Shown here: positions 641 to 45,121 of the stretch, in pieces
How positions within the stretch are numbered: position 1 is the stretch's first letter
Layout of the letters: every line of letters starts with the position of its first letter
Assembly (NCBI RefSeq): GCF_024653915.1
Contig: NZ_JANLGY010000023.1
Span: 1 to 45,714 of the forward strand
DNA: 45,714 bases
Direction: 5' to 3'
DNA from: Sulfuricaulis sp.
GTDB lineage: Bacteria; Pseudomonadota; Gammaproteobacteria; Acidiferrobacterales; Sulfurifustaceae
The notes under the pieces: generated by a model
Databases searched by the model: none
What the model was told of the DNA's origin: nothing
Seen by the model: the letters and a program-made list of their open reading frames with translations, nothing else
Made by a program: the position numbers and the translations under genes

Positions 641-726
641 GGCTAAAAAACAAGCATATACGCTTGGCGCGCCGCGGCGGTGCATGCGATGATGCGCCGG
701 GCGCATTCATCCGCACCGTAGCTTGC

Positions 727-927
727 TATTGACCCGGCACGGTAGTGCTTAGGCGGAGATTTCGACGATGGGAATTCCCCAGTCTTGGTAAACACACTGA
801 TATGCCGGGTCAATATCGAAATTATTACTGATTTTCGATTATTGAGGCGGCAAGACGGCCTTGATAGCGATAGAGCAATAATAGACTGGCAGAAATTTTT
901 GAGTTTATTCACGCCGCCTCAATAATC
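727..927. repeat. Double-palindrome element, copy A (upstream of folD)
   Basis: Two long palindromes stand in tandem. Palindrome 1 has perfect 13 bp arms at 727-739 (TATTGACCCGGCA) and 803-815. Palindrome 2 has perfect 15 bp arms at 837-851 (GATTATTGAGGCGGC) and 913-927. The 21 bp between them is AT-rich. The last arm ends at the base before the folD ATG. A second copy of the same architecture lies upstream of clpB at 42787-42985. The arm sequences differ between copies by paired substitutions, and the linker length is identical. The family is not one I recognise. It may be a structured mRNA leader, a pair of DNA-binding sites or a miniature mobile element. Confidence 0.75.
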
Positions 928-1785
928 ATGAGCGCACGCATCCTCGACGGAAAGAAAATCGCACAACAACTGCGCGCCGAGATCAAACAGCGGGTTGACC
1001 GCCGCCTGGCATCAGGCAAACGGCCACCCGGGCTCGCCGTTCTCAAGGTCGGCAACGAAGCCGCCTCAGAGGTCTACGTGCGCAATAAACGCGAGGCCTG
1101 TGCCGAAGCCGGGTTTATCTCTTTTGATTACGACTTGCCACTGGATATTTCCCAGGAAAAAATCCTGTCCCACATCGACCGATTGAATACAGACCCGGAT
1201 GTGGACGGCATCCTGGTGCAGCTGCCGCTGCCGAAGCACATCGATCAGACAGTCATCATCGAAAGCATCAATCCTGCCAAGGATGTTGACGGATTTCATC
1301 CTTACAACATCGGCCGACTGGCCCAGCGTATGCCGCGTTTACGGCCCTGCACACCGTTCGGCATCATGCGCCTGCTCCAAGCCACCGGCGAGGCGCTGGA
1401 AGGCAAGGAGGCCGTCGTGGTGGGCGCCTCCAATATCGTCGGACGTCCCATGTCGCTCGAGCTGCTGCTGGCCGGCTGCACCGTTACCACTTGCCACCGC
1501 TACACCAAGAATCTGGCTGGGCATGTCGCCCGTGCTGATGTGCTCGTGGTCGCCGTGGGTAAACCCGGAATGGTTAAGGGTGATTGGATCAAGCCTGGCG
1601 CCATGGTCATCGACGTCGGCATCAACCGCTTGCCCGACGGCAAGCTGGTAGGCGACGTGGAATATGACGCAGCCAGACAGCGCGCCGGATGGATCACGCC
1701 AGTGCCGGGCGGCGTCGGACCGATGACCGTGGCCACGCTACTGCTCAACACACTGGAAGCCGCGGAGGAGCGCGACAAAGGATGA
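928..1785 (+). CDS. folD: Bifunctional methylenetetrahydrofolate dehydrogenase/cyclohydrolase FolD
   Basis: FolD interconverts 5,10-methylene-THF, 5,10-methenyl-THF and 10-formyl-THF in the cytoplasm, with NADP as cofactor. The 285-residue protein has the usual length. The YVRNK motif at 50-54 places the catalytic lysine at 54. VQLPLP follows at 97-102, the active-site aspartate lies near 121, the nucleotide-binding stretch [10 protein letters not shown] is at 165-174, and the folate signature PGGVGPMT is at 260-267. The ATG is set by the conserved MSARILDG N-terminus. No Shine-Dalgarno sequence is visible because the palindrome arm at 913-927 abuts the start codon. It precedes pgi on the same strand by 42 bp. 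Confidence 0.97.
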
Positions 1786-4705: not shown

Positions 4706-4725
4706 CAAAACATGATTTTAATTAG

Positions 4726-4800
4726 AACCGCCAAGACGCCAAGAACGCCAAGTTTTTTAGATTTTTCTTGCTTTTCTGGCGCCTTGGCGTCTTGGCGGTT
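4726..4800. repeat. Intergenic palindromic repeat, CCAAG/CTTGG family (copy 1)
   Basis: The perfect 18 bp arm AACCGCCAAGACGCCAAG at 4726-4743 is complementary to 4783-4800. Inside each arm a unit close to CGCCAAGA recurs with a period of about 9 bp. A sister copy lies at 30517-30592. The position between two co-directional genes and the T-rich loop allow a hairpin that could end or attenuate transcription. Confidence 0.85.
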
Positions 4801-4842
4801 AAACTTCAATATCATTTTTCATCGCAGACTGGGGAAATTGTT

Positions 4843-13085: not shown

Positions 13086-13108
13086 AAAAAATATTTAATA
13101 AGTTTTCC

Positions 13109-13201
13109 ACCGCAAAGGCGCGAAGGACGCAAAGGTTAACAAGGTGGATTTCTGCTTTAACCATTTTTGAAATTCTTTGCGCTCTTTGCGTCTTTGCGGT
13201 G
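13109..13201. repeat. Intergenic palindromic repeat, CGCAAAG/CTTTGCG family
   Basis: CACCGCAAAGGCGCGAAGGA (start of the left arm, to about 13135) faces a complementary right arm at 13175-13201 ending CTTTGCGGTG, with about four mismatches, several of which are G-T compatible. The arms have an internal period of about 9 bp. It is unusual in lying inside an operon, between leuC and leuD, where a hairpin could adjust the LeuC:LeuD ratio. Confidence 0.8.
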
Positions 13202-30516: not shown

Positions 30517-30592
30517 AACCGCCAAGACGCCAAGGTCGCCAAAAAGACTTTTTTAAATATAGAAACTTGGCGACCTTGGCGTCTTGGCGGTT
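30517..30592. repeat. Intergenic palindromic repeat, CCAAG/CTTGG family (copy 2)
   Basis: A perfect 26 bp arm, beginning AACCGCCAAGACGCCAAG at 30517, is complementary to 30567-30592; the loop is 24 bp and AT-rich. The outer 18 bp of the arm are identical to copy 1 at 4726-4800. It lies between convergent genes ending at 30505 and 30612 and can serve as a bidirectional terminator. Confidence 0.9.
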
Positions 30593-40125: not shown

Positions 40126-42747
<2,622 letters not shown>

Positions 42748-42786
42748 AAAAAAACCGTCCTCAATTCCGGGTTATGTTATGACCGA

Positions 42787-42985
42787 TTATTGCGGCGGCA
42801 TGAAACTATTTGAGCCATCCGGACAGATTCGACACTCGGTATCACATCCATATTAATCATGCCGCCGCAATAACAGAAATCTTCAATGAATTTTGTTATT
42901 AACCCGGCACACCTATCCATCGGAAGGCTGTACTGTTAGATCAGGCATGCCCTTCGTTTAATAACAATCGTGCCGGGTTAATAAC
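42787..42985. repeat. Double-palindrome element, copy B (upstream of clpB)
   Basis: In the minus-strand reading, palindrome 1 has arms GTTATTAACCCGGCAC at 42985-42970 and 42895-42910 (16 of 16 complementary). Palindrome 2 has arms TTATTGCGGCGGCATGA at 42873-42857 and 42787-42803 (17 of 17). The linker of 21 bp has the same length as in copy A. Copy B differs from copy A in the arms by paired changes (GACCCGG versus AACCCGG; GAGGCGG versus GCGGCGG). It ends 39 bp before the clpB start. Confidence 0.75.
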
Positions 42986-43011
42986 TGGGGTGAAAGCCTT
43001 CACTTTTCAAG
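42982..43011 (-). promoter_or_regulatory. Candidate sigma-32 heat-shock promoter of clpB
   Basis: On the minus strand, CTTGAA at 43011-43006 and CCCCAGTTA at 42990-42982 are 15 bp apart, against a consensus CTTGAA, 13-17 bp, CCCCATTTA (one mismatch). Transcription would start near 42975, inside the first arm of the double palindrome. A heat-shock promoter before clpB is expected from known biology. Confidence 0.6.
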
Positions 43012-43013
43012 TG

Positions 43014-43778
43014 TTATTGCACGGTTTCCCCATTATCCGGCGATTTCCCGTTACGGCGTTGGCGATGCGGGTTATCGTGCCTCCGGTTCTCCCCTGACAG
43101 GGCCAACCGGTCCCACAATTCTTCCAGGCAATGCTCGTCTTCCTGTCCGGCACAGTGCAGCGGAACAAAGCTCAGGATACAGGCGCGGCTCGGAATGAAC
43201 ACGGCCGTGACGGTCATGCCCTGGGCGCGAATTCCCTCAATGCGTACCGGATGAATGGCCACGCCCGTGTGGGACGCCAGCAAGGCGATGCCGCGTTTCA
43301 AGGGCGCCGGTTCATGATGATCGAGATGAATGCGTCCATGCGGAAACAGCGCCACGATCTCGCCGCGTTTGAGCGCCTTGCGCGCCGCTTCGAGCGCGCT
43401 GCGGGGGTTGCGCGTGCGCTCCAGCGGAATGCAGCCCACAGCGCGAAACAGCCAGCGCAGCCACCAGCGGTCGTATTGCTCGCGCGCAATCAGAAAGCGC
43501 AGCGGCCTCGGGCTGGCGGCGATGAGCAGCAGCGGATCAAGGCCGGAGACGTGATTGGAAGCCACGAGCGCCCCACCGGTGGCGGGAAGATTCAGTGGCT
43601 CATGCACCAGATGGTGAAAACGGCGACAGAAAATGCGGTTCAATCCGTCCAGCCGGTTGAGCCAGCGGCTGCCCCAGTCCGCGCCGTTGGCGACCTCGCA
43701 CAAACGCAGCAACCAGAACCACAGCCACGCGAGCAGGATAATGACCGCCGCCAGCACCATGAATGTGATTGCGGTCAT
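43014..43778 (-). CDS. PlsC-family 1-acylglycerol-3-phosphate-type acyltransferase
   Basis: A 254-residue membrane-associated protein from MTAITFMVLAA, with an N-terminal transmembrane helix (about 6-25). The acyltransferase motifs are NHVSGLD at 75-81 (HX4D catalytic pair) and FPHGRI at 145-150. The usual second block is FPEGTRS, so the glutamate is replaced by histidine, a notable departure. VAIHPVRIEG near 170 fits block III. The C-terminal tail is rich in Arg/Asn. The ORF runs further upstream, but the residues there overlap the UMF1 gene and are not conserved in character. Substrate: lysophosphatidate or another lysolipid, unproven. Confidence 0.8.
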   Translation of the reverse strand: MTAITFMVLAAVIILLAWLWFWLLRLCEVANGADWGSRWLNRLDGLNRIFCRRFHHLVHEPLNLPATGGALVASNHVSGLDPLLLIAASPRPLRFLIAREQYDRWWLRWLFRAVGCIPLERTRNPRSALEAARKALKRGEIVALFPHGRIHLDHHEPAPLKRGIALLASHTGVAIHPVRIEGIRAQGMTVTAVFIPSRACILSFVPLHCAGQEDEHCLEELWDRLALSGENRRHDNPHRQRRNGKSPDNGETVQ

Positions 43779-43795
43779 GGGTGAAGCGGCGAGAC

Positions 43796-45121
43796 TCAAC
43801 CCGGGTGAACTGCCGCGGCGCGCCCGCGGGGTTCGTTCACGGTCATCAACAGCAGAAGTCCGGCGATGAAGAATCCACAGGTGGAGAGCAGCGCCAGGCG
43901 ATGATTGCCGTGTGTCAGGTAAGTCACCAATCCATAAACCAGCGGTCCGATAACCGCCGCGAGCTTGCCAGCCAGGCCCCACAAACCGAAAAATTCCGCC
44001 GCACGCGCCGGTGGCGAGAACTGCCCCACCAGAGCGCGTCCGGCCGACTGGCTCGAGCCTAGCGCGAGCCCGACAAGATTCGCCACCACCCAGAAACCGG
44101 CACGGGTTTCAGTTAGGTATGCCAGCACCAGCGCCGCAATCCATACGACAAGCGTCACCGCCAGCGTGCGCACCGAACCGAGACGGTCCTGCACCAGGCC
44201 GAACAGCAGCGCGCCCACCGCGGCGGTGACATTAACAACGAGAATCAGGATGATGTTTTCCTGCATGGTGAAGCCCATCGTCTCCTGCGCATAAATAGCG
44301 GCCAGCACAATCACGGTATTAATGCCGCAGTAATACACCGCGAGCGTGACGAGAAAGCGGAACAGGTCGCGATAATGCCGCGCGTGCGCCAGCGTGTGCC
44401 GCACGCGCGCGAAACCGATGCGAAAATAGGTTTCACCCGGCGCGAGCCGCTGTGGCACAGCGCGTTCACGCAACCAAAGGAAAGTGGGGAGCGCCGCCAG
44501 CGCAAACATCACCGCAGTGATCCACATGGTCACCGGCACATACTGTTCGGCGAGAGCGCCACGCGACTGCGCCCACTGTATGTAAACCAGGCACAGGCCC
44601 AGCACCAGCAGGCCGCCGAGATAACCGAGCGACCAACCATAGCCCGAGATGCGCCCCATTTCCTTCTGGCTGGCAATCTCGGGCAGAAATGCCGCGATGA
44701 AATTCTCGCCGCTGGCGAACATCAACGTCGCCAGGATCACGAACGTCATGCCGAGTACCACATCGCCGGGTCCGACAAAACCGAGAAGCATAGTAAAGAA
44801 CACGCAACCGGCGGTGGTGAGCGCAAGGAATCTTTTTTTGTGCGCGCCGCGATCGGCGATGGCTCCCAGCACCGGAGCGCTCGCCAGCACCACCATATTG
44901 GTAATGGCCATGGCCACGGTCCACAACAACGTCGCCGTGCCGCTCCGGTCCGCGCCGTTGGCGGCCACGACGCCGACGAAATAGGCATTGAACACCGCCG
45001 TCAGCACCACCGTGGTGTAACCGGAGTTGGCGAAATCGTACATGGCCCAGGCCAGCACTTCGCGCCGGGGCACCGGGAGACTGACGGGGGAAGACAGCGT
45101 TTCGGGTCGGAGATCGGTCAC
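43796..45121 (-). CDS. UMF1-family MFS transporter
   Basis: A 441-residue multi-helix transporter of the UMF1/Atg22-like subset of the major facilitator superfamily. The family-defining N-terminal motif AWAMYDFANSGYTTVVLT sits near 24-41, and the loop LGAIADRGAHKKRF follows helix 2. Further family features are SGYGWSLGYLGGLL near 160 and ALGSSQSAGRALVGQ near 355. The start is GTG at 45121 with no clear ribosome-binding site, next to a 10 bp palindrome (arms 45137-45146 and 45209-45218). The cargo is unknown. The acyltransferase gene follows after 17 bp. Confidence 0.9.
   Translation of the reverse strand: MTDLRPETLSSPVSLPVPRREVLAWAMYDFANSGYTTVVLTAVFNAYFVGVVAANGADRSGTATLLWTVAMAITNMVVLASAPVLGAIADRGAHKKRFLALTTAGCVFFTMLLGFVGPGDVVLGMTFVILATLMFASGENFIAAFLPEIASQKEMGRISGYGWSLGYLGGLLVLGLCLVYIQWAQSRGALAEQYVPVTMWITAVMFALAALPTFLWLRERAVPQRLAPGETYFRIGFARVRHTLAHARHYRDLFRFLVTLAVYYCGINTVIVLAAIYAQETMGFTMQENIILILVVNVTAAVGALLFGLVQDRLGSVRTLAVTLVVWIAALVLAYLTETRAGFWVVANLVGLALGSSQSAGRALVGQFSPPARAAEFFGLWGLAGKLAAVIGPLVYGLVTYLTHGNHRLALLSTCGFFIAGLLLLMTVNEPRGRAAAVHPG

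Follow-up and report, generated by a model that had tools for sequence, protein, structure and literature searches.

Palindromes at the clpB heat-shock promoter of a Sulfuricaulis species as a probable insertion of a lineage-specific interspersed element

In Sulfuricaulis sp. two long perfect palindromes lie upstream of clpB, and the outer one runs into the -10 box of a heat-shock-type promoter. Was such an arrangement built to control the chaperone gene, or did it arrive with mobile DNA? A preliminary description of this DNA (the window, a stretch of 45,714 nucleotides) leaned towards control and suggested a DNA-level role for palindrome 1, an RNA-level role for palindrome 2 and the input of an additional regulator. 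Judged from comparative sequence analysis, the palindromes look more like a piece of inserted mobile DNA than like a switch made for the purpose. Very probably they represent a recent insertion of a lineage-specific, non-autonomous interspersed element, MITE- or BIME-like in kind, into the first few base pairs transcribed from an old sigma-32-type promoter. This reading is carried by dispersed copies that keep a fixed internal spacing, by sites without the element, by a close paralogue in front of aceE and by a promoter that is conserved where the element is absent.

The clpB promoter and its leader

The sigma-32-like promoter is found where it had been proposed, on the minus strand and overlapping the first palindrome arm, with CTTGAA, a 15-nt spacer (AAGTGAAGGCTTTCA) and the -10 box CCCCAGTTA. 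From upstream to downstream, the locus comprises:

43014..43982, minus strand: upstream open reading frame with an acyltransferase match below curated cut-offs; its stop codon stands directly before the -35 box
43006..43011, minus strand: -35 box CTTGAA of the clpB promoter (sigma-32 type)
42982..42990, minus strand: -10 box CCCCAGTTA, whose last 4 nt (GTTA) are the first 4 nt of arm A1
42974..42977, minus strand: predicted clpB transcription start, best estimate 42975, placed by dnaKp1 geometry
42785..42985, minus strand: clpB copy of the putatively mobile bi-hairpin element, including 2-nt and 3-nt feet; boundaries from comparison with the aceE copy and from covariation
42970..42985, minus strand: hairpin A, outer arm A1, GTTATTAACCCGGCAC, perfect inverted repeat
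42911..42969, minus strand: loop of hairpin A, 59 nt
42895..42910, minus strand: hairpin A, inner arm A2, perfect inverted repeat including the inner foot AC
42874..42894, minus strand: linker, 21 nt between perfect arms (24 nt counting feet)
42857..42873, minus strand: hairpin B, inner arm B1, perfect inverted repeat
42804..42856, minus strand: loop of hairpin B, 53 nt
42787..42803, minus strand: hairpin B, outer arm B2, perfect inverted repeat
40126..42747, minus strand: clpB, ATP-dependent chaperone ClpB (NCBIfam NF008118, 1523.5 bits), starting 37 nt downstream of the element

Of 30 clpB upstream regions from the order, that of the window counted in, 29 have the motif CTTGA-N12-18-CCC; among control windows, random 400-nt stretches taken from the same loci, the figure is 268 of 3000. 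This argues that the promoter is old and predates the palindromes. At the level of sequence it is ancestral, intact and more than a chance match: it has the CTTGAA, the spacing of about 13-17 nt and the CCCCAT-like -10 box of the sigma-32 type, and the identical -10 box is present at clpB of two congeners (G002 and G007), both without the element.

The position of the transcription start can be estimated from the E. coli dnaKp1 scaffold, for which the cited passages of PMC10216364 give CTTGAA at -35 to -30 and, counted along the printed sequence, the first C of CCCC at -15. Transfer of this spacing puts the clpB +1 at about 42975, inside arm A1, in line with the start predicted earlier; given this start, palindrome 2 would lie wholly within the leader RNA, as had also been claimed. 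The clpB leader RNA was folded from 10 assumed starts. The arms of hairpin A paired at 0.93 or above from the second pair inward with starts at 42978 or upstream, at 0.66-0.72 with a start at 42977, at 0.11-0.54 with starts at 42976-42974 and at 0 with 42972; hairpin B, for the start at 42977 only, paired at 0.9-1 along most of its stem. That the locus divides between DNA and RNA, as proposed, is plausible with hairpin A as 'mostly DNA' and hairpin B as 'RNA', but it hinges on 2-3 nt of the predicted start position.

From CTTGA to the ATG the distance is 264 nt in the window (G000), 65-71 nt in six congeners and 190 nt in G007, where an unrelated repeat is inserted in the leader. This insert (L055) is itself an inverted repeat and lies between -10 and ATG, and the clpB leader of G002 (L057) has another inverted-repeat insert by the -35 box, with CTTGA on both sides; by eye, both are unrelated to the element. 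The clpB promoter may be a landing spot for repeats.

A dispersed unit of two hairpins

Two perfect inverted repeats were reported in 42600-43300, and none beyond these: one of 16 bp with arms 59 nt apart (42895-42910 / 42970-42985) and one of 17 bp with arms 53 nt apart (42787-42803 / 42857-42873). Both palindromes of the preliminary description are thus real features, but they appear to be parts of one mobile unit, 42785-42985, rather than clpB's own, and the second, given as 42787-42873, should reach 42785. The unit shared with the aceE copy ends exactly at 42785 and 42985, except for one extra common A at the left, the common stretch starting with AGTTATT and ending with AATAATC. The inserted core of the clpB copy is probably about 194 bp long; overall the element measures roughly 195-201 bp and consists of hairpin A, a short linker and hairpin B. 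At the feet of the clpB copy, GT pairs with AC on the left and ATC pairs incompletely with TGT on the right. Folded as DNA, the 201-nt unit has a z of -7.26 against 200 shuffles. A covariance model of hairpin A also matches hairpin B of the clpB copy, with 34.1 bits inverted and 33.0 bits in the same orientation (window E of 1.9e-7 and 4.2e-7, respectively), which indicates that the two hairpins are related; the orientation of B as an inverted relative of A was judged by eye. As related hairpins, A and B furnish the terminal inverted repeats typical of MITEs, if imperfectly, and the short copies are dispersed without a transposase gene, as those of MITEs are.

Besides more distant copies, a sequence search of the own genome returned one of 94% at C28:3036-3237, and the covariance model recognises at least six A units there (C23:725, C23:42895, C28:3146, C28:52001, C15:13493 and C5:43376), detecting the sixth at G000:C5:43376-43470. 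The four full copies precede clpB, folD, aceE and fusA, all in sense orientation and just upstream of the start codon. The folD copy is the second one in the window:

725..927, plus strand: another complete copy of the element, which stops immediately before the folD ATG
928..1785, plus strand: folD (NCBIfam NF008058, 478.3 bits)

Abutting the start codon, this copy leaves no space for the usual ribosome-binding site after the element; at the folD site of relatives, G005 has an apparent remnant of the A arm (L247) and G008 has none (L230). The window also contains further long hairpin repeats at 30517-30592, 4717-4809 and 13108-13201, with arms such as AACCGCCAAGACGCCAAG or CACCGCAAAGGCGCGAAG, that are distinct from the element.

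Across 72 fetched regions and the window, 52 full elements were found in 11 genomes of one family, each containing a single A and a single B with 23-27 nt between them. They are written A first by convention; the constants are the spacing and, nearly always, the orientation of the loops. The hairpin lists of the fetched regions hold no A-A or B-B pairs, the pairing script itself having sought only A with B. The 52 leave out 22 of the 72 fetched regions that lacked a full pair at the arm thresholds, 18 of them with one hairpin only (in some cases with a diverged or shortened partner) and four, L165, L179, L185 and L186, with none. In three variants of G009 (L130, L133 and L135), hairpin B is partnered by a hairpin with quite different arms (GTCCCGCCACTAAATCGAC in L135, 1615-1800), and L136 has one such arm at a contig end; the hairpins of the element may be exchangeable modules.

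The element seems confined to a narrow lineage. Of 20 family genomes searched by pattern, 10 contain hairpin A and 7 contain hairpin B, and a reversed control pattern matched nowhere in the same genomes. An exact-pattern scan of a collection of 84,980 genomes returned 29 stretches, all in MAGs titled Muproteobacteria, Gammaproteobacteria, Sulfuricaulis or Acidiferrobacterales. BLAST placed the element in 11 of 41 relatives (own genome counted), every one in its own family; under stricter filters the covariance model found it in 14 of 57 genomes of the order, of which 13 are among the 20 family members and one, G054, belongs to a different family. Neither viral contigs, searched with the exact pattern, nor plasmids gave a match. 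No description of the element appears in the titles and abstract beginnings surveyed for it or for MITEs in this lineage, and the passages of PMC8889020 on mobile elements of Acidiferrobacter do not mention it.

Evidence for movement comes from comparison of the sites. At clpB the element is absent from seven congeners (G001, G002, G003, G005, G006, G007 and G008; G004 was not among the leaders read), and in the tree the own-genome copies before clpB and aceE group as sisters (SH-aLRT 100). The aceE copy has an orthologue in G001 and an internally deleted remnant in G007, hence the aceE position is the older one. For 14 elements the two flanks were joined, nine congeneric genomes were screened for the product, and the sites that span the join were aligned with it. 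The G008:C46 element (L140 site) has an empty counterpart in G000, which reads GC-TA-ATC, and the G008:C20 element (L153 site) has one in G002 and G007, which reads AG-TA-ACC or AG-TA-GCC; at both, TA stands at the junction and the flanking bases are already there. Several further sites, clpB among them, fit by length (by eye) if one TA is kept; the remaining ones are too diverged or of unequal length. Empty sites and recent copy movement, two more MITE traits, are therefore seen in this family. The alignments fit either duplication of TA or clean insertion of a unit beginning TATT; direct repeats in the flanks were weak, a 3-mer flank match being seen in 5 of 52 elements, with 1.21 expected (p 0.008, uncorrected for 45 tests, five of which fell below 0.05). 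At clpB the element would have inserted at a GT-TA site, sparing -35 and -10; the insertion would shift +1 into arm A1 and provide clpB with a structured leader of about 200 nt that holds all of hairpin B.

Stems and feet

The stems covary. Removal of the presumed orthologous duplicates L157, L168, L175, L180 and L183 reduced the 52 elements to 47 loci, and 40 of the 47 A units entered the alignment and the covariance model; those left out were L145, L155 and L169, which have inverted or possibly inverted loops, and L171, L121, L123 and L166. In these 40 units, 9 of the 16 pairs of hairpin A show changes on both sides (shuffle mean 3.4, 0 of 500 as high). Wobbles are distributed evenly over the strands, with GT 12 versus AC 11 in A and 16 versus 12 in B, and this lack of bias points to structure in DNA rather than RNA; the pattern favours stems that act at the DNA level. 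The loops show no folding beyond chance, and the linker forms a weak mini-hairpin across the family, with a mean z of about -1.7 on both strands (mononucleotide shuffles).

Pairing does not end with the TATT at the element boundary. At A it reaches exactly 2 bases further (48 and 46 of 52 elements, against 32.7 and 29.5 expected), the third base pairing in 12 of 52 (12.0 expected); at B it reaches 3 bases, the first invariant and the next two pairing in 44 and 45 of 52 (33.5 and 33.9 expected), and the fourth pairs in 10 of 52 (11.4 expected). Full complementarity of the feet is seen at A in 41 of the 47 loci, where 19.0 would be expected and none of 20,000 shuffles exceeded 28, and at B in 35 of 47, with 19.1 expected and 32 as the highest shuffled count; the feet lie outside the search patterns, and the shuffles ignore the kinship of the copies. 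Feet match in 14 of 18 cases among non-GT flanks and in 10 of 19 among non-ATC flanks. The idea that the feet are an ordinary part of the element was set aside: the empty sites of L140 and L153, as well as CCCCAGTTA at clpB of G002 and G007, already include some of the flank bases, and the flank side of the feet is thus at least partly host-derived.

Among non-consensus flanks, the copies with mismatched feet are those whose relatives are closer, with p of 0.015 for the right foot, 0.09 for the left and 0.003 when pooled. This test uses non-GT or non-ATC flanks only, pools two feet per element and takes nearest-copy distance as a rough age; mismatches next to consensus flanks, 2 at the left and 3 at the right, fall outside it, the right foot of the clpB copy among them. 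The trend suggests that the feet come to pair once the element is in place; a test of independent pairs on the tree comprised 4 pairs only (median p 0.25). Some loops are inverted, in hairpin A of L145, L155 and weakly L169 (2-3 of 52) and in hairpin B of L159 and L170 (2 of 52), which points to template switching or an inversion between the arms of a hairpin. We consider it possible, without favouring it, that a mobile element with two hairpins is completed by host DNA, either by hairpin-templated repair or by selection after insertion. If this were true, each copy would seal itself to its own site via exactly 2 (left) and 3 (right) target-derived flank bases, and a copy could convert the first transcribed bases of a promoter into a stem arm.

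Host function, mobilisation and known relatives

Several routes by which the element might serve its hosts were considered. IHF-like sites occur in 1 of 52 elements (shuffled mean 0.52) and are not enriched, so that IHF control as in Correia elements was rejected. In 42700-43100 there is no terminator-like or sigma-70-like site, and a search of 42500-43300 against Rfam returned only a chance-level miRNA match (E 0.56); along with the absence of a wobble strand bias, this led us to reject a dedicated riboswitch or attenuator. Fifty elements have two called neighbours, 18 divergent, 29 tandem and 3 convergent, no different from an intergenic background by length of 29%, 61% and 10% (p 0.35 and 0.28), and tandem elements occur in both orientations (11 sense, 18 antisense). 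Element positions that equal the background provide no general evidence of a regulatory role, and a preference for promoters, the impression given by the own-genome copies, failed against it. In presumed orthologues, two of four loci show fewer changes in the arms than in the loops (L143/L157, 0 of 54 positions versus 34 of 117; L174/L180, 3 of 54 versus 22 of 121), the other two not being significant, and L168/L178 differ by a compensatory pair change in place; arm conservation is weak support for a host role, because the loci were found via their arms.

Mobilising enzymes were sought as well. None of the regions read contains a transposase with element-like ends; the genome-wide search covered the Y1 family alone. 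The own genome has four Y1 matches, which neither neighbour an element nor carry an element arm at up to 2 mismatches, and three incomplete element-bearing genomes (G001, G014 and G015) gave no Y1 match. A RAYT/REP origin was rejected, as the own-genome Y1 loci are free of element arms and the presence of Y1 does not track that of the element; of the hallmarks of REP/BIME sequences, an adjacent TnpAREP (Y1) gene is lacking at the four own-genome Y1 loci and in the three incomplete genomes, and no GTAG-like tag beside a palindrome is conserved in the 52 flanks.

How, then, do the explanations compare? Dedicated control of clpB would have palindrome 1 act as a DNA operator over the -10 box and palindrome 2 as an RNA thermosensor or attenuator, with a second regulator involved. 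It can point to the seat of arm A1 on -10/+1, to the very stable hairpin B in the leader and to the perfection of the stems. Yet dispersed copies precede unrelated genes, seven congeneric clpB leaders have the same promoter without the element, no terminator-like or sigma-70-like site is at hand in 42700-43100, and the stems have no RNA-strand wobble bias; we regard this reading as highly improbable. The operator or anti-activator role once proposed for palindrome 1 accordingly finds no support in a unit that precedes folD, aceE, fusA and many other genes and is missing from those seven leaders, and no sign of an additional regulator of heat-shock output was apparent in the sequences, nor is there any need to assume one.

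Two other explanations would leave the insertion itself in place. Compatible with it is a domesticated family, in which copies at gene starts are kept because their hairpins benefit the host, for instance by protecting mRNA or by binding a protein. The conserved arms beside diverging loops (clear at two of four loci), the compensatory change in L168/L178 and the four sense copies just upstream of start codons agree with this, but the neighbour classes of the 50 elements equal the intergenic background, both orientations occur, broken copies exist and the loci were found through conserved arms, which makes domestication rather unlikely. A special case of the insertion would be an element derived from IS200/IS605, moved as single-stranded DNA by Y1, with the inner feet as target guides. 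A hairpin at each end, inner feet complementary to the flanks, insertion compatible with no target duplication and the precedent of IS608 in the cited part of PMC5934647 are in its favour. However, guide tetranucleotides 5' of each hairpin were not found: the complementary foot is on the 3' side of A and on the 5' side of B, so that on either strand at most one inner foot is 5' of its hairpin, whereas IS608 has both guides there. The right-foot mismatches in copies with closer relatives are the reverse of what guides would lead one to expect, an age trend that weakens the feet as target guides, and no link to Y1 is seen; we hold this origin to be distinctly unlikely.

The insertion of a small interspersed element, our preferred reading, has parallels in other bacteria. 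Correia elements (NEMIS) of Neisseria are described in the cited passages of PMC10969869 and PMC2229807 as about 100-200 bp long and often intergenic, with inverted-repeat termini and TA ends, and the clpB element is similar in length, inverted ends and TA at the ends. The nearest documented case, in the part of PMC10969869 cited, is a Correia copy just downstream of the mtrCDE promoter that affects transcription and RNase III cleavage and has an IHF site. The Sulfuricaulis element differs in comprising two long hairpins and a linker mini-hairpin, in its host, in the lack of a sigma-70-like promoter match around the clpB copy and in its unenriched IHF sites. ERIC sequences are single imperfect palindromes, unlike this two-hairpin unit. 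They share with it the character of an intergenic repeat with inverted ends and TA termini, and passages of PMC2229807 describe ERIC/IRU as 127 bp long and co-transcribed in mRNAs. REP units are 20-50 nt long, bear a GTAG tag and go together with TnpAREP. The units described here are about 88 nt long with loops of about 60 nt; they lack a conserved GTAG and, in the own genome, a Y1 gene linked to them. Common to both is the arrangement of two palindromes in inverted orientation with a linker between them, as given for REP/BIME in the passages cited from PMC8266576. With IS200/IS605, as represented by the cited passages on IS608 (PMC5934647), the element has in common a hairpin near each end, internal bases that pair with the flank and possibly the absence of target duplication; unlike in that family, the foot pairing lengthens the hairpin stem from the inner side, the matching seems to arise after insertion and no transposase was found. 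Lastly, template switching at quasipalindromes perfects the arms of inverted repeats and inverts the spacer (PMC7202029, PMC8604942 and PMC8794818, in the passages cited). Some element loops are likewise inverted; that phenomenon is a mutation process, whereas the gain of pairing in the element stops sharply at 2 and 3 flank bases.

On the preferred reading, the element would have spread in the manner of a small DNA transposon, its stems working as DNA structures and its mobilising enzyme being encoded elsewhere. Its effect on clpB would likely be incidental, through altered stability, processing or translation of the leader, and a cruciform may interfere somewhat with the -10 box, as for Correia elements near promoters. 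A supposed regulator of clpB would thereby give way to an inserted mobile element whose close relative, the aceE copy, can be traced and whose empty sites occur naturally. The empty and filled clpB sites would offer a clean comparison, with and without, of a hairpin insertion at the +1 of a heat-shock promoter, and the 52 natural copies may reveal how palindromes perfect themselves after insertion and how far into the host DNA this extends.
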